Assembly (NCBI GenBank): GCA_028681575.1
Contig: JAQUHX010000007.1
Location: forward strand, 1-39,686
Source: Patescibacteria group bacterium
GTDB lineage: Bacteria > Patescibacteriota > Patescibacteriia > Patescibacteriales > UBA12465
Length of the DNA stretch: 39,686 bases
Reading direction: 5' to 3'
The position numbers and the translations under genes were made by a program. Positions 6,205 through 27,221 of this stretch are shown here, piece after piece (the stretch's first letter is position 1; each line of letters opens with the position of its first letter). Under the pieces are notes generated by a model, which saw nothing but the letters and a program-made list of their open reading frames with translations, ran no database searches and was not told the DNA's origin.

Positions 6205-6933
6205 ATGAGAATGAAGGGAAAAGTGGCGATTGTTACCGGGGCGACTTCAGGCATTGGCCGGGCAATAGCCGAGCACTTCCTCAAAGAGGGGGCGCAAGTA
6301 GTTTTTTCTAGTTTATCAGAAACAATGGAATTAGCTGACCCGAATGCTTTTTATGTAAAATGTGATGTTTCTAAAAGCGCTGAGGTTGATAACTTAGTTC
6401 AGGCGGCAGTTGATAAATTTGGCCGCTTAGATGTTATGGTTAATAACGCTGGCGTTGGCGATTCCCATACTTTAGTAGAGACGACTGATGAAGAATGGCG
6501 AAAAATTATTGATATTAATCTTACTGGAGTTTTCTATGGTGCTCGAGCTGCTGCTCGCAAAATGAAAGAGTTAAAAATTGCTGGCAATATTATCAATATG
6601 AGTTCCGTTTTGGGTAAGGTTGGTTTTTTTGGGGCAATTAGTTATTGCAGTGCTAAAGGTGGTGTTGTTCAGTTGACTCGAACTGCCGCTTTAGAGTTAG
6701 CTCCTCTAGGAATTAGAGTTAATGCTATTGCGCCCGGTTTTATCGCTACCAAAATGACTGAAAACATTCTGGAAAATAAAGAATTTAACAAAATAATTAT
6801 TGATAGTACGCCAATGGGGCATGTTGGTGATGTCGATGACATCGCTAAGGCAGCTGTCTTTTTAGCCAGCGATGAGGCTAAATATATCACCGGAGAAATG
6901 CTTTATGTTGATGGTGGCTGGACATCAAGATAA
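6205..6933 (+). CDS. Short-chain dehydrogenase/reductase (FabG-like fold)
   Basis: 242 residues, classical SDR. The cofactor motif TGATSGIG is at 11-18, NNAG at 80-83, and the catalytic tetrad Asn105, Ser134, Tyr147 and Lys151 (YCSAK) is intact. The C-terminus has the IRVNAIAPGFIATKMT and YVDGGW signatures. The substrate cannot be read from the sequence; 3-oxoacyl-ACP reductase, glucose dehydrogenase or a sugar-modifying reductase are all possible. CPR genomes usually lack fatty acid synthesis, so a FabG role should not be assumed. It follows gap by 6 bases. A second ATG two codons in (6211) is an equally possible start. Confidence 0.9.
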   Translation: MRMKGKVAIVTGATSGIGRAIAEHFLKEGAQVVFSSLSETMELADPNAFYVKCDVSKSAEVDNLVQAAVDKFGRLDVMVNNAGVGDSHTLVETTDEEWRKIIDINLTGVFYGARAAARKMKELKIAGNIINMSSVLGKVGFFGAISYCSAKGGVVQLTRTAALELAPLGIRVNAIAPGFIATKMTENILENKEFNKIIIDSTPMGHVGDVDDIAKAAVFLASDEAKYITGEMLYVDGGWTSR

Positions 6934-6946
6934 TATTATTAATCTT

Positions 6947-7705
6947 ATGAAAAAATTAAAAGATTTATTCATTAAAAAAGAAAAAAAATTAATTCCTAGT
7001 GCTGAATTATTAAAGGGTACTTGGCAAGAATATAAAAAATACGCTTTTAAGTTTATTGAGTTACTAATCTACGGTTTGATTGGTTCTTTGCCGTTTTTAA
7101 TTTTAATTTTTGTCTTTTTTAATGCTTTAGTTAAGTTTGAGGAAGGTTTGATTGGTTTTGGCGTTTTAGGAATTTTAAGCATTTTTTTGGTAGCTGCCTT
7201 TGTCTTAATGATTATCTGGAATTTACGGGCGCAAATAGGTAGTATTATTCTCCTAAAAGAAGATTATCAGCCCTCACCTCGGGAAAGCTTTAAAAAGGCG
7301 AATAAATATTTAGTTCCATTCCTTGGTGTGACTGCTTTGCTCACTGTTTTAATTTTCGCCTGGGGGATGCTTTTTCTTTTGCCGGCCTTAATCTTCGGAA
7401 TTTATTATGGCTTTGCTCAGTATGTTCAGATTGCTGAAGATAAAAGACCTTTTAGTTCAATCGAGCGCAGCTATGACCTTGTACTTAATTATTGGTGGCC
7501 AGTTTTTGGACGCTTTTGTCTTTTGATTTTGATTGGCTTTTTGGTTTATGGTTTGCTAAGTGTTCCTTTTTTCTGGATTGGCGATAGCGGCTGGCTGTTT
7601 GAGTCTTATAATCTTTTGATAAATCTAATTTGGGTTTTGTTGTCACCTTTTTTCACAATTTATCCTTATAAGGTTTATAAGAACTTAGTTAAAATAAAAG
7701 ATTAA
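6947..7705 (+). CDS. Multi-pass membrane protein, unknown function
   Basis: From ATG 6947 (MKKLKDLFIKKEKK) the protein has 252 residues; the ORF-track start at 6872 overlaps the SDR gene and adds no plausible sequence. A Lys-rich cytoplasmic N-terminus precedes about six hydrophobic segments (roughly 35-60, 65-95, 115-150 as two, 185-210, 220-245). Between them is a short amphipathic loop, YQPSPRESFKKANKYLVP. The layout resembles the DUF975/GPDPase-membrane-domain type of small integral membrane proteins often found in CPR and Firmicutes, but I cannot name a function. It is last in the gap operon, 13 bases after the SDR gene, and followed by a terminator. Confidence 0.75.
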   Translation: MKKLKDLFIKKEKKLIPSAELLKGTWQEYKKYAFKFIELLIYGLIGSLPFLILIFVFFNALVKFEEGLIGFGVLGILSIFLVAAFVLMIIWNLRAQIGSIILLKEDYQPSPRESFKKANKYLVPFLGVTALLTVLIFAWGMLFLLPALIFGIYYGFAQYVQIAEDKRPFSSIERSYDLVLNYWWPVFGRFCLLILIGFLVYGLLSVPFFWIGDSGWLFESYNLLINLIWVLLSPFFTIYPYKVYKNLVKIKD

Positions 7706-7865: not shown

Positions 7866-8786
7866 ATGTCTAGAAAAAAATGGCGGACCCTGTCTTTAAA
7901 AATAAAGATAATTAAGTTCTGGCACCTTTATCGCTGGTATTTAATTGGCGCTTTAGTCTTTTTAAGTGTATTTCTATTATTATTTCCAATCATGAAGAAG
8001 GATTGGCTTATTTACCCAGCTTCTTTACGAGCCCAGATTGCTCTTAGCTATCTTTTAAATGACCAGGCTTTGGGAGGCTCGTGTCGAGAAAGTTGTCAAA
8101 AAGAGCGTCAGCAATATGCTGCTTTGGTTTTTGCAGGTGGTCAGGACTTACGCCTTAAAATGGAAAAAGCTTTAATCGCTTCAAGCACTAATCCGGAAAT
8201 TAGGCGATTATTAATTAATAGTTGGCAGGAAGCTGATTGGGGCGCTCCTAATTTAGAGCTATTAGCGTCCGCTCCATATCTGGAGCAACAGATTGCCCTG
8301 GTTCAAGCCTGGCCTGAGCTTGCTCCCGCTGATTGGTTGGCAGAGTTAATAAATCGTTTTTATGAAAGTAAAGATGATAGTGAGCGAGTCTTAATTTTAA
8401 GAAATTTATTAGGAAATCAAGAGCCAATAGTTGAAGAACTAATTAAGGAAATTATTCAGAATAAAAATTACGCAAATTCAATAAAAGAAGAGGCTTATCT
8501 GCTTTGGGCTAATTTGCCTAATAAGGAGAGAGCTCAGGCTCTAATAGACTTATCTTTGTGGCAAGAAGTTTTATTAAGCGAGTCTAGTTCGTCTTCGCTT
8601 AAAGAATCAATTATTTGGGGCTTGGCACCAAAAACTCACTTAATTTATCAGGCAGAGGAGCTGAAACAATTATTAAAAGCATTTTTAGAACAGATTGATG
8701 ACCTTAATCCTCATTTGCGCTTAGCAACGGAAACGATTTTATTTGATTGGCTAAAATTAAAACCAGACCTTATTAAAAATATATGA
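7866..8786 (+). CDS. Membrane-anchored helical protein, unknown function
   Basis: 306 residues. A basic N-terminus is followed by one membrane segment at about 26-46 (WYLIGALVFLSVFLLLFP), then an extracytoplasmic region of about 260 residues. That region is almost entirely predicted helices with a repetitive Leu/Ala pattern like HEAT or other alpha-solenoid repeats. One CRESCQ motif near residue 73 could form a disulfide or bind metal. I do not recognise a named family. The last codons overlap the next gene as ATGA (8783-8786), so the two are translationally coupled and probably act together at the cell surface. No Shine-Dalgarno sequence precedes the ATG, which is joined to a terminator-like T run. 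Confidence 0.7.
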   Translation: MSRKKWRTLSLKIKIIKFWHLYRWYLIGALVFLSVFLLLFPIMKKDWLIYPASLRAQIALSYLLNDQALGGSCRESCQKERQQYAALVFAGGQDLRLKMEKALIASSTNPEIRRLLINSWQEADWGAPNLELLASAPYLEQQIALVQAWPELAPADWLAELINRFYESKDDSERVLILRNLLGNQEPIVEELIKEIIQNKNYANSIKEEAYLLWANLPNKERAQALIDLSLWQEVLLSESSSSSLKESIIWGLAPKTHLIYQAEELKQLLKAFLEQIDDLNPHLRLATETILFDWLKLKPDLIKNI

Positions 8787-11700
8787 GCTATTTAAAAAAT
8801 AAAATTTTAATTTTTTTCTTAAGTCTTGGGTTTATTTTATTTGCCTTACCAGCCCAGGCGCTTCCGATTGGTACACTTTTATTTAGAACTTCTTCTGATG
8901 GCTTAGCTTATGGATATAATACTAATATTTTAGTAATTATTGAGGATGGGCTTCCTAAGCATTTTTATTCTGGTCATACTGGAATTTATGTTGGTCAGGA
9001 AGAGGGGGTTCACTATGTCGTGGAAATGCAACCTCAAGGAGCGATTAAAATTCCGGCTAATCAATTTGTAAATACCGCTTTAGGTGAAAAATTAATTAGT
9101 GCGAAAATTCCTAAAGACTCTACTCCGGCCCAAAGGGCGCGGGCGGCTCTTTTGGCAAAAAATATTGCTCGTGCTGAAATGGCTTATGATTTTGATTTTA
9201 AAAATCAGAAAGGGCCCGGCCCTTCAGAATGGACTTGTGTGGGTTTGGCAGAAAAAATTTATGAAAGTGCCAATAGCAGTAATCCCGCTGATTTAGAAAC
9301 CCTTGTCTATGAGATTGGTGATTATGCGGTTGATATTACTCCCGATGGGTTTGATAATCACAGTCTTTATAACCAGGATGGTGATTGTTTTTCAAAAACC
9401 AAAGAGTTTTCTAAAATTGCTAAAAAATCTGAATTAATCTTACCCCTACCAGAGAAAATTGGTTATGATTTTGGGATTGAAAAGGGTGGCGATCGTTTCA
9501 TTTTTTTTCCCCAAACTCAAGAGGCTCAGATCTCTCTTTTAGAAGTGCCGGTGGATATTGATTTAGAATCGGCTTTTAAGGCTGACCCTGTTCGCGGGCG
9601 CATCCCGGTGCTTAAGGTCGCTTTAAAATGGAGCTTAGTTAATAATCCAATCTCTACTGTTAAACAAATTGCTCATAAAGCCACAACCGCTTTTAATTTT
9701 GTCAAAAATCTTATCTTTCCCGATGATGACGGTTTGGTTTATTTAGAGGAAGAGCCGCCAGTTTCAAATTCGGACGAAGAGGTCACTTCTTATCAAGAAC
9801 CTGTTTTGATAGCACCTAAAACTAGTTCAAGCTCTGCAGTCCTGGATAAAAAAGAAATCTTAGGTACAAAAGTTGTTTCAAGTTCTATCTCTATTTCTGA
9901 TCCAAGCCCGACTACCACAACGACGCCAATAGTGGCCCAACCTCAAAACAAGCCAAAGTCGCTAGCTCTTTCTTTTAATCCAGAGCCGCAAACAAAAGTT
10001 TCACAAAGTCCTGTTAAAACAGCGCCAAAGAATAATTATGTTCCACTTAAAGTTGCTAGTCCTAAGGAGTCGGTTACCAATCAATTAAAAAAATTGGTGC
10101 CGGAAAAAGAAGAGCCTAAGAACACTTCAGTAAGTGAAAGTTCTCAACCGGAAACTGATTTGCCAATCCCGAAAGCTTTAATTTCTAAGGTTTATAGTAA
10201 TGGGACGGATGATTGGCTAGAAATTGTTAACGCTTCTAATGAAGATTTAGATTTGGCGATGCATGATTATCGTCTAGTAAAAGCTAAGGGTTCGAGCCCG
10301 ATTTTAATTATGAATTTTGGTAATGAAAATCACGGCTTTTATCCGGGCGGAACAGTTATTGCTCCTGGTGGCAGTTATTTAGTGGTTCGTTCTTCGGCCT
10401 CAGAAAAAGTTAAGGCTTTAGCCGATGCTATTTCAACGCGAGATAACTTTTCCTGGACTGAAGAGGGTTATACTCTTTATTTAGGAACAGGGGCTATTTC
10501 TAGCGACGATGATAATGATATAGTTGATCGCTTAGGTTATGGCTCAGCCCTATATTATTCAAGTGCTCCAGCGCCAGCCCTAATTCCTGGTTATGCCTTA
10601 GAGCGCAGAGCGAATGCCCAATCGACAATTGAATCTTTATCAAGCGGTGGTTTAGAGGAATTGTGGCCGCGTTTATATGACAGTGGGGATAATAGTTATG
10701 ATTTTTTGTTAATTCCTTATGACTACGAATTAATAAAAGCCGCCGAAGAAGAGAATGACCCGCCTGCTCCTGAAGAAGAAAATAATGATGAGGAAGAAGA
10801 AGCTGGCTCAAGTCCCGAGGAATTAGTTGATGATGGTGAGGGTTTGTTTGTTAATCTGGCCGGTCTAGATTCTGATAATTTAACACAATTATGGCATTTT
10901 GATGAATGTTTTGGTGCTAAACAGAGCAATGCTTTAGCAACCCTGAGTGCCCACCCAGAAACTTTGACGGCAGCTGATTTATGGGGGATAGGTAAATGGG
11001 GTTGTGCCTTAAAGTTAAATGCAGATAATCGTAGCTTAAAAAGTGATTTACCCTCAGATTTTGACAGCAATAATTTTACTATCGCTTTCTATTACAAAAA
11101 TGATGTTTCTGGTAACTTTTTTATTGATTGGCGCTTAAACAATCGTAATCCGGAAACACAACAATTTGCCCTTAATTTAAATGAATATCGTACTGAAATA
11201 AATGGTTTCCCCGGCCCCAATGGTGTCTTTTTTGACATTGTTTGGCCGGCCGATAACCAGTGGCACCAAGTGGCCCTGGTGGTTAACCAGATAGCTGGAT
11301 ATTGGGCTTTGTATCTTGACGGTCAGGAGCAGCATTATTACGAAAATACTTGGATAATCCCGGATTTTACTGATTGGGAAATTGAGTTAAGACCAAATAC
11401 GCCCGCCGTCTTAATTGATGAGTTGGCAATGTGGTTAAGACCTTTATCGGAAGCCGAACTTAAGGAAATTTTTGATTATAATTTACCTTTTAATCCCTAC
11501 ACTTGGCCCAGCCCCCAGCTGGCACCAGAGCTTGAACATTATTGGCGTTTTGACGAGAATAACCAGGAAGTCGCTCGCGATGAAATTGGTGGCGACGATT
11601 TAGCGATTAAGGTTCAGGATTGGAATATGGAGGGTTTTATTAGTAGCAGTTTGAAGGTGGAAGGTGATTTTTCTTGGGATTTAACAGAAATGCCCTTAAA

Positions 11701-12133
11701 AGATATCTCGTTTGCCTTTTGGTGGCGAAATACTTCTCATCCTGACGAAGGGCGCTTTAATTTTAAATTAGGAGGCGGCGATAAAGATATTTTAACCTTA
11801 ATGCCAACTATTTATAATCCCAGTTATTCTTTTAATGGCGAGGGTGGTTTTTTGGGCGAATATGGCAAAGATTATTTTCCTCATGATAACAATTGGCATC
11901 ACTTAGCGGTAACTTATGATTCCTATCGTTATCGTTGGCGCTTGTTTTTTGATGGAGAGTTATGGAAAGAAGTTCCTTTTATGAAATTAAGACCAGAAAC
12001 AGTGCTAAATCGTTTGATTATTGATAGTGAAAATTGGTCTTCTGATATTGATGAGCTTAAGATTTGGAAGGGGGTTTTAAATAGCGAGGCAGTTTTAGCA
12101 GAGTATGAGAGCTATTGTGAGTACTTGGATTAA
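8783..12133 (+). CDS. Large exported modular protein: permuted NlpC/P60-like (YiiX-type) domain, lamin-tail domain, two LamG-like domains
   Basis: 1116 residues, exported. Signal peptide 1-26 (FALPAQA|L). Residues ~28-200 resemble the YiiX/C92 permuted papain fold: His65 in SGHTGIYVG precedes Cys152 in EWTCVGLAEKIY, with Glu81 in VVEMQP as a possible partner. Such domains cleave peptide or amide/ester bonds, often in cell walls. About 320-460 is a Pro/Ser/Thr linker. About 461-605 is a lamin-tail-like beta domain (SNGTDDWLEIVNASNEDLDL ... YTLYLG ... ERR). An acidic Glu/Asp linker follows (650-690). Two concanavalin/LamG-like domains lie at ~699-905 and ~917-1110, each with LWHFDE/YWRFDE starts, WH(Q/H)(V/L)A, a (L/F)(Y/F)(L/F)DG strand and an IDEL strand. 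Probably a wall- or host-surface-acting enzyme with glycan-binding modules. Coupled to the previous gene. Confidence 0.8.
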   Translation: MSYLKNKILIFFLSLGFILFALPAQALPIGTLLFRTSSDGLAYGYNTNILVIIEDGLPKHFYSGHTGIYVGQEEGVHYVVEMQPQGAIKIPANQFVNTALGEKLISAKIPKDSTPAQRARAALLAKNIARAEMAYDFDFKNQKGPGPSEWTCVGLAEKIYESANSSNPADLETLVYEIGDYAVDITPDGFDNHSLYNQDGDCFSKTKEFSKIAKKSELILPLPEKIGYDFGIEKGGDRFIFFPQTQEAQISLLEVPVDIDLESAFKADPVRGRIPVLKVALKWSLVNNPISTVKQIAHKATTAFNFVKNLIFPDDDGLVYLEEEPPVSNSDEEVTSYQEPVLIAPKTSSSSAVLDKKEILGTKVVSSSISISDPSPTTTTTPIVAQPQNKPKSLALSFNPEPQTKVSQSPVKTAPKNNYVPLKVASPKESVTNQLKKLVPEKEEPKNTSVSESSQPETDLPIPKALISKVYSNGTDDWLEIVNASNEDLDLAMHDYRLVKAKGSSPILIMNFGNENHGFYPGGTVIAPGGSYLVVRSSASEKVKALADAISTRDNFSWTEEGYTLYLGTGAISSDDDNDIVDRLGYGSALYYSSAPAPALIPGYALERRANAQSTIESLSSGGLEELWPRLYDSGDNSYDFLLIPYDYELIKAAEEENDPPAPEEENNDEEEEAGSSPEELVDDGEGLFVNLAGLDSDNLTQLWHFDECFGAKQSNALATLSAHPETLTAADLWGIGKWGCALKLNADNRSLKSDLPSDFDSNNFTIAFYYKNDVSGNFFIDWRLNNRNPETQQFALNLNEYRTEINGFPGPNGVFFDIVWPADNQWHQVALVVNQIAGYWALYLDGQEQHYYENTWIIPDFTDWEIELRPNTPAVLIDELAMWLRPLSEAELKEIFDYNLPFNPYTWPSPQLAPELEHYWRFDENNQEVARDEIGGDDLAIKVQDWNMEGFISSSLKVEGDFSWDLTEMPLKDISFAFWWRNTSHPDEGRFNFKLGGGDKDILTLMPTIYNPSYSFNGEGGFLGEYGKDYFPHDNNWHHLAVTYDSYRYRWRLFFDGELWKEVPFMKLRPETVLNRLIIDSENWSSDIDELKIWKGVLNSEAVLAEYESYCEYLD

Positions 12134-12295: not shown

Positions 12296-12636
12296 GGGGG
12301 TAAGTAGGTGGTTGCTCGGTTCGCCGAGAGGAAAGTCCGGACTCCTTAAAAAGGGCAGTGGATAACGTCCACCGGGGGTAACCCTAGGGAAAGTGCCACA
12401 GAGACAATACTAATTTTAGCTTGCTAAAATGAAAGGTGAAAAGAAAAGGGGTGTCGTAAGGCTACCTTTTTCGCTTAGCGGTGACGCTAAAATCGCGGTA
12501 AACCCTGCCTGGAGCAAGGACAAACTCCGTCACTTTAGGGTGTTGGAGGAAAAGTAGTCCGCTTGATCGGTTTGGCAACAAATCGGCTTAGATAAATAAT
12601 CATCCAAAGACAGAATCCGGCTTATCGCTTACCCCC
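12296..12636 (+). ncRNA. rnpB: RNase P RNA, bacterial type A-like
   Basis: Catalytic RNA that trims the 5' leader of tRNA precursors. The universal P4/CR-I block GAGGAAAGTCCGGACTCC is at 12328-12345 and the CR-V block ACAGAATCCGGCTTAT at 12610-12625. The ends pair as P1: GGGGGTAAG with CTTACCCCC. The CR-IV-like GTAAACCC..CCTGGAGCAAGG is also present. Length about 341 bases. The P15-P17 region looks short (CTCC...GGAG enclosing a small loop); a GGGTG in it could supply the GGU contact with the tRNA 3' CCA, but this is uncertain. No separate terminator is seen between its 3' end and the ATG at 12663. Confidence 0.95.
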
Positions 12637-12662
12637 AAAAGATAATTTTTTAAATTTTTTTT

Positions 12663-23592: not shown

Positions 23593-25227
23593 ATGCCTAA
23601 AGAAAGTTTAAGTGCTAAAAAAAAGGTTAACGCCAAGACTTCAAAAGCAACTGCAAAAAAAGCTCCTACTTCTAAAAAGACGCTTACTAAAAAGACTGCT
23701 GCTCCTAAAAAAAAGGCGCCAAAGAAAACGACTACTTCTAAAAAAACGGCTACTAAAAGAACGAATTTGACGAAGAAGAGTCCGACTAAAAAAACAAGCG
23801 TTAAAAAATCGCTTGAAAAAAAAGTTTCTAAGGTGAAGCCAGTTTTTGTTGATGTTATTTCTGACCAAGAGACAGAAGCAACATTTAGACGACCAGTTTA
23901 TCAACCTGACTATCAGGAGGAGAATGAGGAAGAAGAAGGTGTTGAAAATATTTATAATAAGCAAGCGGATATTCCGGATTTTGAGCTAACCGATAATGAA
24001 GTTTTTGATAAGCAGAAAAACTTTTTTTCCGAGCTTATTGAGGAAAGTGATGATTTTTCTTCAAATGAAGAGATGGCCGAGCAACCAATTTTAAGAAAGA
24101 AACCTTTAAAACTTTATCGTCGGCAAGCTTGGGTTTATTTGGCGGCAACACTAATTCTAATGCTAACTGTTTTTTATTTTTTTGCAGTTAAGCTAACAGT
24201 TACCATTCATCCTCGGGGAGAAGAGTTAATTAATGATGAGGTGAATTTTACCGTTACTTCTGCAACCGAAGTGGATTCCGATTATCCCTTGGTCCGTGGT
24301 GAAGCAAAAATAGTCGAGGAAGAAGCTGAGAAAGTTTATCAAGTTGAAAAGGGAAATGAGGTTGATGATTTAAGTGGCCGAGTCCGCGGCAGTGTTACTT
24401 TAATTAATAAGTTAGCCCGTAATCAACGTCTCGTGGCAACTACCCGATTACTAACAGCGGATGGGCGTCTTTATCGCCTTGATGAGGCGGTTAATATCCC
24501 CGCCGGCGGTCAGATTGAGACAAGTGTTTATGCTGATGAATTAGGGAGGGATAAACTATTAACTAGTTCGGAAAAATTAACTATTCCTGGCTTGTGGGAG
24601 GGTTTGCAAAATAGTGTTTACGCAGAAAGCAGTGGACCTTTTTCTTATCAGGCCGACATCAAGACTATTGTTACCGAAGAAGATTTAGAGAAAGCTGAGG
24701 CAGATATTCAGGCAGTTTTAGATGCTAAAGCTAAAAATGATTTTCGTCCAGCCGCCGGTCAAGCAACGACTTATAAAGAAGTTCCTGAGTCTTTTGTGGT
24801 TGAATTTAGTGTTAAGGCGGGTGATAATGCTTCAGAATTTACTGCCACTGCTAAAAAAGGTTATGTTTTAGCCCGTTTTTCTAAGGAGGATGCGATTAAT
24901 CTTGCTAAAAATCGTTTAGCGATGGTGATTCCTGATGACAAGCGTTTAACCGGGTTTAACCCAGATTCAATTGTTTTTACTTTAGAAAAATATCAAAGTA
25001 ATCCAGCTCAAGCGACAGTTACAGCTAATTTTAGTGGTCAGATGCTTGCAAACGGTGACAGTCTTTTTCTGGATTCTAATAAATTGGTCAGCTTGAAAGA
25101 AGCGCAAATAAGAGATCACCTTAGTCAGCTTCCTGAAATTGATAGTTATGAGCTTGATTTTTGGCCCTCTTTTATTAAAAGAGCGCCACACTTGCCAGAT
25201 CGAATTAAAATAAAAACTGCTGATTAA
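23593..25227 (+). CDS. Membrane protein with Lys-rich N-terminus and baseplate-J-like extracytoplasmic domain
   Basis: 544 residues. Residues 1-85 are a low-complexity Lys/Thr/Ala tract (repeats like KKTATKK, KKSPTKK) resembling histone H1 or bacterial HctB-type tails. Residues 95-165 are strongly acidic. One TM lies at ~178-198 (VYLAATLILMLTVFYFFAV). The outer part (~200-544) has a segment like the baseplate protein J domain: GSVTLINKLARNQRLV, LLTADGRLYRLDEAVNIPAGG and VYADELGRD. This domain is common in CPR membrane proteins of unknown role and does not imply a phage. The opposite charges of the two cytoplasmic segments could interact, or the Lys tail could touch nucleic acid (inference). 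The gene ends at a bidirectional terminator shared with fba. Confidence 0.7.
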   Translation: MPKESLSAKKKVNAKTSKATAKKAPTSKKTLTKKTAAPKKKAPKKTTTSKKTATKRTNLTKKSPTKKTSVKKSLEKKVSKVKPVFVDVISDQETEATFRRPVYQPDYQEENEEEEGVENIYNKQADIPDFELTDNEVFDKQKNFFSELIEESDDFSSNEEMAEQPILRKKPLKLYRRQAWVYLAATLILMLTVFYFFAVKLTVTIHPRGEELINDEVNFTVTSATEVDSDYPLVRGEAKIVEEEAEKVYQVEKGNEVDDLSGRVRGSVTLINKLARNQRLVATTRLLTADGRLYRLDEAVNIPAGGQIETSVYADELGRDKLLTSSEKLTIPGLWEGLQNSVYAESSGPFSYQADIKTIVTEEDLEKAEADIQAVLDAKAKNDFRPAAGQATTYKEVPESFVVEFSVKAGDNASEFTATAKKGYVLARFSKEDAINLAKNRLAMVIPDDKRLTGFNPDSIVFTLEKYQSNPAQATVTANFSGQMLANGDSLFLDSNKLVSLKEAQIRDHLSQLPEIDSYELDFWPSFIKRAPHLPDRIKIKTAD

Positions 25228-26330: not shown

Positions 26331-27221
26331 ATGAGTAAAGGGAAAAGAAAAATTTCTGATGATCAGATTCACGATTATGATGATCCAATTAATATGACCC
26401 CCAAAAATTTAAAATTAGGTTTTTGGGTTGCCCGCAATAAGCGCCGACTCTATCGTGCTTTGGTTATTTTTTTGGGGTTAATTGCTTTTGGGACTGTGGC
26501 TTATGCAGTTTATGGTGTAATTGAATACAATACGATTGGTCGAGAAAGGGAAAAGATTACCCTTTATTCTAGTGGCGGGGTTGATATCTCTGATTATCGG
26601 GAGCAAAATCGTCCGGAGGATTTAAGGATTAGCACTCCGCGATCATTGGCTGGTGGCAGTGAGACTGATTTAACTGTTAGAATTAGTAATCCTAATGAGA
26701 AGCAATATGCTTATTTTGATTTTTGTTTTATAAATTCTGAAAATGAAGCTTGTGGGAGTGATTTTATTTTGCCGCAAGATCAGAAAGATTTAGCTTTATT
26801 AAACTCAACTTTAGGAACCGGAGGTGAAATTCGCTTTGTAATCAAAAGAATTTTGTGGCAGAAATTAAAGGCTTATGAAGTCCCTGATTGGACTGTTTTT
26901 AAAGAACAGCGTCTTAATTTTGAGGTTGATGACGCGCAATTTTCTACTTATACCAACGAAGTTGCTTATTTAGAATTTTCTGTTAGTAATAATACGTCTT
27001 TTTCCTATTTTTCAGTTCCTTTTGATATCTTTATTCGCCAAGGTGATAAAGTAATGGCAATTAATCGTTATGTGGTTTATGATTTTTTAAGTCGAAGTAC
27101 GCGTTCAGTTCGACTTCTTTGGCCGGAAGGGGAAGCGCGTGGTGGCAATATTGAAATTATTCCAAATTTAAATATTCTCGACGATAGCATCTATAGACCG
27201 TATTCGGCCCCTGAAAATTGA
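26331..27221 (+). CDS. Single-pass membrane protein, unknown function
   Basis: 296 residues. A charged N-terminus (1-38, SKGKRKISDDQ start) is followed by one TM at ~41-63 and then ~230 residues outside the membrane. The outer part has beta-rich character with LTVRISNPNEKQYAYFDF resembling an immunoglobulin-like or DUF11-type strand pattern, and two Cys (DFCFIN, EACGSD) that may form a disulfide. No enzyme motif is seen. Its stop is 1 base before the rodA start, so it is the first gene of a rodA operon and may take part in envelope growth (inference from position). Confidence 0.65.
   Translation: MSKGKRKISDDQIHDYDDPINMTPKNLKLGFWVARNKRRLYRALVIFLGLIAFGTVAYAVYGVIEYNTIGREREKITLYSSGGVDISDYREQNRPEDLRISTPRSLAGGSETDLTVRISNPNEKQYAYFDFCFINSENEACGSDFILPQDQKDLALLNSTLGTGGEIRFVIKRILWQKLKAYEVPDWTVFKEQRLNFEVDDAQFSTYTNEVAYLEFSVSNNTSFSYFSVPFDIFIRQGDKVMAINRYVVYDFLSRSTRSVRLLWPEGEARGGNIEIIPNLNILDDSIYRPYSAPEN

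Follow-up and report, generated by a model that had tools for sequence, protein, structure and literature searches.

The window, that is, the whole analysed stretch of 39,686 nucleotides, contains two overlapping genes on the + strand, on which their parts and the RNase P RNA gene given below are also located. The first of them (7866..8786) encodes a partner protein of 306 aa, and the second (8783..12133) encodes an exported Peptidase_C92-LTD-LamG-LamG protein of 1116 aa, which is present in the frame that an earlier note on this DNA had assigned to it. The two genes share 4 bases (ATGA) and, judged from sequence, are a two-gene unit. The 530-base gap on the 3′ side of the enzyme gene was considered as the site of an overlooked small gene, and this was rejected, since the gap is taken up by the RNase P RNA (12296..12640; RF00010, 218.9 bits), which is a conserved downstream neighbour and not part of the unit. 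It is followed by a sugar transferase gene and two GT4 genes, and this order is the same in most relatives. The closed genome G028 retains both rpS2-EF-Ts-PSP1-GAPDH and RNase P RNA-sugar transferase-GT4-GT4; the enzyme and partner genes are both absent, with other genes in their place, and the flanks are otherwise syntenic. Because housekeeping genes flank both sides, the position is chromosomal and old, not mobile. The absences of the enzyme gene in G031 and G010 were rejected as losses, as the flanking sugar-transferase gene is missing there too. Elsewhere in the window, a multi-helix membrane protein of 277 aa without a Pfam match is encoded at 6872-7705, and a homologue of it is located in the same region of G028. 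ORFs without a Pfam match are also found at 23593-25227 (544 aa) and 26331-27221 (296 aa), the latter directly preceding an FtsW/RodA gene.

The 1116-aa protein begins with a predicted Sec-type signal peptide (residues 1–26, 8783..8860) without a lipobox Cys, and its prediction is based on hydropathy and on the conserved Ala26. The only hydrophobic segment of the protein lies near residues 3–34, the signal peptide end reads AQA followed by LP, and Ala26 is found in 32/32 aligned members, so that the signal peptide proposed earlier stands. It is followed by the C92 (YaeF/YiiX-like) catalytic domain with a conserved extension (residues 27–296, 8861..9670; PF05708, AF2, Foldseek), a variable linker (residues 297–461, 9671..10165), the lamin-tail domain (LTD; residues 462–605, 10166..10597; PF00932, AF2), an acidic linker with a net charge of −23 (residues 606–696, 10598..10870), LamG/ConA-like domain 1 (residues 697–905, 10871..11497; PF13385, AF2, Foldseek) and LamG/ConA-like domain 2 (residues 917–1116, 11531..12130; PF13385 at 969–1104, AF2, Foldseek). 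The mature protein is strongly acidic, with a net charge of −80. The window protein shows neither a lipobox nor a sorting signal, and nothing that would anchor its C-terminus; its display, rather than release, is for this reason something that we infer, and this counts against the acyl-enzyme explanation set out below. The enzyme domain evolves slowly, with a mean column identity of 67% versus 33% for the C-terminal part, and its identity to a same-genus relative is 84%, versus 39% for the linker 297–461.

When the full-length protein was compared with Pfam, Peptidase_C92 was not reported, and a plain annotation run would therefore miss the enzyme too; the NCBIfam scan gave no match. The isolated residues 24–296 scored 32.3 bits with Peptidase_C92 (PF05708), for which the cut-off is 27, and each of the 32 aligned members matched it at a relaxed threshold (best E 4.9e-11). 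In addition, the family-model search of whole genomes scored only part of the C92 copies of the Falkowbacteria family. Taken with the missed full-length match, this makes the window enzyme a divergent member of Peptidase_C92. The AlphaFold2 model of the enzyme domain has a pLDDT of 91 and a pTM of 0.90, and the only PDB matches that Foldseek returned for it at E ≤ 0.001 were the two YiiX chains of 2if6 (E 7.4e-5, TM 0.67 of YiiX). At the level of the predicted model, the N-terminal domain is thus confirmed as a YaeF/YiiX-type permuted papain fold. The earlier note had proposed this fold and had named its absence as a result that would speak against the proposal; AlphaFold2 and Foldseek instead gave the YiiX fold.

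His65, Glu81, Tyr135 and Cys152 of the window protein match the catalytic quartet that has been described for permuted NlpC/P60 enzymes (PMC3142127). Among them, His65 (8975..8977) is the catalytic His position and is aligned to the YiiX His, Glu81 (9023..9025) is the third residue of the triad, Tyr135 (9185..9187) is the fourth catalytic residue and corresponds to the conserved Tyr of NlpC/P60, and Cys152 (9236..9238) is the position of the nucleophile. The permuted order His65-Glu81-Tyr135-Cys152 is present and all four residues are invariant in 32/32 aligned members; that is to say, the His and Cys first noticed are where they had been placed, and the suggested look for a Cys-His-Glu site found all three residues together with Tyr135. 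The profile of the 32 members was aligned to YiiX at the His, Glu, Tyr and Cys positions, with an E-value that by itself is only 0.05. The GD motif near the first strand is not found, as G30-T31 stands here, and the relatives have G followed by T, A or S. This motif is typical of the superfamily, structural and highly conserved, but it is neither catalytic nor by itself defining. Its departure to GT counts against the acyl-enzyme explanation set out below.

The lamin-tail and LamG-like domains of the earlier description also have profile matches. PF00932 matched residues 466–587 of the window protein with 32.0 bits, slightly less than its cut-off of 34.3 (E 1.7e-7), relatives with two LTD copies reached 50.9 and 60.6 bits, and the pLDDT of the AF2 model is above 80 over most of the domain; it is below 50 across model residues 187–230, which belong to the acidic linker. 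Laminin_G_3 (PF13385) matched two stretches with 68.8 bits, above its cut-off of 27.6, and Foldseek matched the C-terminal part to jelly rolls of the ConA-like type, galectin-8 among them. Kinship with galectins or with the binding domains of clostridial neurotoxins was rejected, since the identity is about 10%, the TM is 0.15–0.26 of the query and the rmsd of the same matches is 16–28 Å; what they have in common is the ordinary ConA-like jelly roll. Glycan binding is not universal among LamG/ConA-like folds.

The partner has one N-terminal membrane helix, about residues 20–45, followed by an alpha-helical HEAT/Armadillo-like domain, and the charges ahead of the helix suggest that its larger part would be located outside the cell. 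HEAT_2 was matched in 5/32 partner members and the PDB hits were of the Armadillo type, which suggests an alpha-solenoid. The motif Cys73-Arg-Glu-Ser-Cys77 (8082..8096) is a CxxxC that is found in 32/32 members, and only M1, C73 and C77 are invariant in the partner alignment (A5). In 31 of 35 loci, the gene directly upstream of the enzyme gene is a partner homologue in the same orientation. Two of the remaining four loci lie at contig edges, another has a gap of 371 bases and the last retains only a degraded remnant. As the partner profile was built from the upstream ORFs, its E-values on those ORFs are circular; support independent of these values comes from pairwise matches to the window protein, the Cys73/Cys77 pair in 32/32 and the genome-wide profile search, which found the partner in 35/39 genomes of the family. 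In the class sample, it was found only in genomes that also hold a C92 gene.

Of the 39 genomes in the Candidatus Falkowbacteria family to which the window belongs, 36 have the N-domain, with one copy each (one genome's is split), and this frequency excludes chance. Elsewhere in the order it is found in 1 further genome of 111. The class sample of 381 genomes gave only six matching genomes outside the family, all in one order, and the 380 genomes drawn from the phylum gave no N-domain match outside the family. No relative was found on viral contigs or on plasmids, and the matched records are mostly named Candidatus Falkowbacteria or Patescibacteria. The same domain order, which the earlier note had advised looking for in other CPR genomes, occurs across the Falkowbacteria clade, so that its "new domain mix" holds for the fusion itself but not as an oddity of a single genome, since the fusion is a fixed trait of the whole family. 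Several single loci are worth recording. The sole relative elsewhere in the order (L059/L099, G104) has an intact catalytic set and a partner, and its enzyme frame is cut at a contig edge. The enzyme gene at L061/L096 (G005) is apparently split into two overlapping frames near the contig start. L128, L129 and L130, in a few genomes of the family (G007, G005 and G026), are additional, separate short C92 genes whose open frames of 238–302 aa leave no room for LTD and LamG domains. The record of L079 (JALOQQ010000043.1) is titled Planctomycetota, and it holds a Falkowbacteria-type enzyme positioned inside the Falkowbacteria clade; the title is probably wrong.

The partner gene, the nuclease-bearing variants and a sister clade without the His and Cys all go beyond the earlier note. 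The complete relatives tested in the Falkowbacteria family each contain one to four LTD copies, and a staphylococcal-nuclease domain lies between C92 and LTD in L037, L046 and L086, with a divergent one in L057, whose nuclease site, read by eye, looks partly lost. The sister clade, in another order, comprises five N-domains (L098, L100, L102 and L103 complete, L101 cut off) that form one clade in the tree with a support of 100/100. In them His65 is replaced by Gly or Ala and Cys152 by Ser or Ala, and Glu81 and many non-catalytic residues are retained, the ITPDG motif and other non-catalytic columns being nearly invariant across both clades. All five keep the export signal and the C92-like domain, and the four complete proteins carry two to three LTDs and, instead of LamG, DUF2341 and in some cases Ig/fn3-like modules. 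At three sister-clade loci, the upstream gene likewise encodes a HEAT protein that has a helix at its N-terminus and two nearby cysteines. The His/Cys change has no firm root, as the branches of the outgroup are very long, and it is read as a loss because other C92 proteins have both residues. That precisely these two residues changed together is good evidence that they form the catalytic pair.

As regards function, we consider it about an even call that Falkowbacteria export the gene product through Sec and display it on the cell or around it, and that it is a cysteine enzyme of the permuted YaeF/YiiX (C92) type which hydrolyses or transfers acyl groups. With His65 and Glu81 to activate it, Cys152 would attack an acyl ester or acyl amide, with phospholipid, lipoprotein or lipo-amino acid as candidate substrates; the LTD and LamG domains may hold the enzyme to an envelope glycan or another surface, and the partner, through its membrane helix and extracytoplasmic HEAT-like domain, may dock or regulate it at the membrane. 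The acyl chemistry is an argument from analogy, because the site of YiiX contains a bound fatty acid and the S1 pocket of permuted members is hydrophobic (PMC3142127), the permuted NlpC/P60 protein Tox-Act1 is a phospholipase (PMC12994826) and LnsA, inferred to be YiiX-like, is required for lipoprotein N-acylation (PMC7387801). Most likely, a cell without ketoacyl-ACP synthase would use it to remodel or harvest acyl chains. The synthase was found in 0/39 family genomes versus 14/14 controls; this absence supports, and does not prove, fatty-acid auxotrophy of the family.

The earlier note had the anatomy right and was suitably cautious on function. It had spoken of an action on "wall or lipids", and wall appears to be the weaker half of this pair, since the permuted members studied so far point to acyl or lipid chemistry and not to peptidoglycan (PMC3142127, PMC12994826, PMC7387801). 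A cell-wall amidase or endopeptidase that remodels its own or a host envelope, with LTD and LamG as wall or glycan anchors, is rated unlikely. Canonical NlpC/P60 relatives do cleave peptidoglycan, the gene lies in a conserved neighbourhood just upstream of the sugar-transferase/glycosyltransferase run, and the FtsW/RodA gene and a polysaccharide-export gene occur elsewhere in the window; however, the domain is of the permuted kind, whose hydrophobic site was judged unsuited to peptides (PMC3142127), and the RNase P RNA between the enzyme gene and the glycosyltransferases makes one operon unlikely.

The sister clade bears on another reading, namely that the domain belongs to a surface adhesion protein and serves it mainly as a structural or ligand-binding module, with catalysis secondary, and to this we give a similarly low probability. 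Its five N-domains without the His65/Cys152 equivalents keep export and domain as a well-supported clade, four of its proteins keep LTDs while replacing LamG, and columns such as ITPDG are nearly invariant in both clades; the domain thus has a role that survives without catalysis, and selection may act mainly on something other than catalysis. Against this, the full catalytic set in 32/32 members of the enzyme alignment (A1) would hardly be expected unless catalysis is under selection. Least probable, and indeed improbable, is an extracellular scaffold for scavenging nucleic acid or mixed debris, in which C92 is one of several exchangeable hydrolases: the four loci with a nuclease domain would suit it, as would the company of LTDs with extracellular nucleases such as ExeM (PMC6085458, PMC8289736), but a nuclease domain is missing from the window protein and from most relatives, the constant part is C92 rather than the nuclease, and the nuclease site of L057 looks partly lost.

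Returning to the acyl hydrolase or acyltransferase, a more far-reaching version, which we put forward as speculation and consider unlikely, is that the enzyme and its HEAT-like CxxxC partner would be a dedicated acyl-acquisition device, consisting of a surface-held acyl hydrolase/transferase and a membrane receiver, by which fatty-acid-auxotrophic Falkowbacteria would take acyl chains from neighbours or debris, the catalytically dead sister version in another order keeping only the binding half. A review states that the mechanisms of lipid uptake and breakdown are unidentified in Patescibacteria (PMC11665869), and a family-wide exported YiiX-type enzyme in cells without ketoacyl-ACP synthase is a cheaply testable candidate for lipid acquisition there. 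Moreover, the intact and the His/Cys-less versions offer a natural comparison by which binding can be separated from catalysis in this enzyme family.

Among known systems, ExeM and other LTD-bearing extracellular hydrolases are likewise secreted and multi-domain (PMC6085458), but their catalytic domains are nucleases and not C92, and only a few relatives of the window protein add a nuclease domain. Tox-Act1, a Salmonella type VI effector, and related permuted NlpC/P60 phospholipases share the permuted core and are lipid-directed (PMC12994826); however, Tox-Act1 is an injected antibacterial effector with an immunity protein, whereas the window gene is family-wide and its product Sec-exported. 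LnsA of Staphylococcus aureus, with inferred YiiX-like permuted residues, works with a second gene product, LnsB (PMC7387801), and in this resembles the window pair, although lnsA and lnsB are noncontiguous while the window genes overlap, and no LTD or LamG is reported for LnsA. The closest likeness in fold is YiiX of E. coli (2if6; PF05708/MEROPS C92), which has the same permuted His-Glu-Tyr-Cys order at a sequence identity of about 16%. The YiiX chain has about 186 residues, and the window domain adds the conserved extension to residue 296; the LTD, the two LamG-like domains and the dedicated membrane partner gene are the window enzyme's, unlike YiiX. In summary, the kind of enzyme itself is not new, and what is new is the domain architecture and the two-gene unit around a known enzyme fold.
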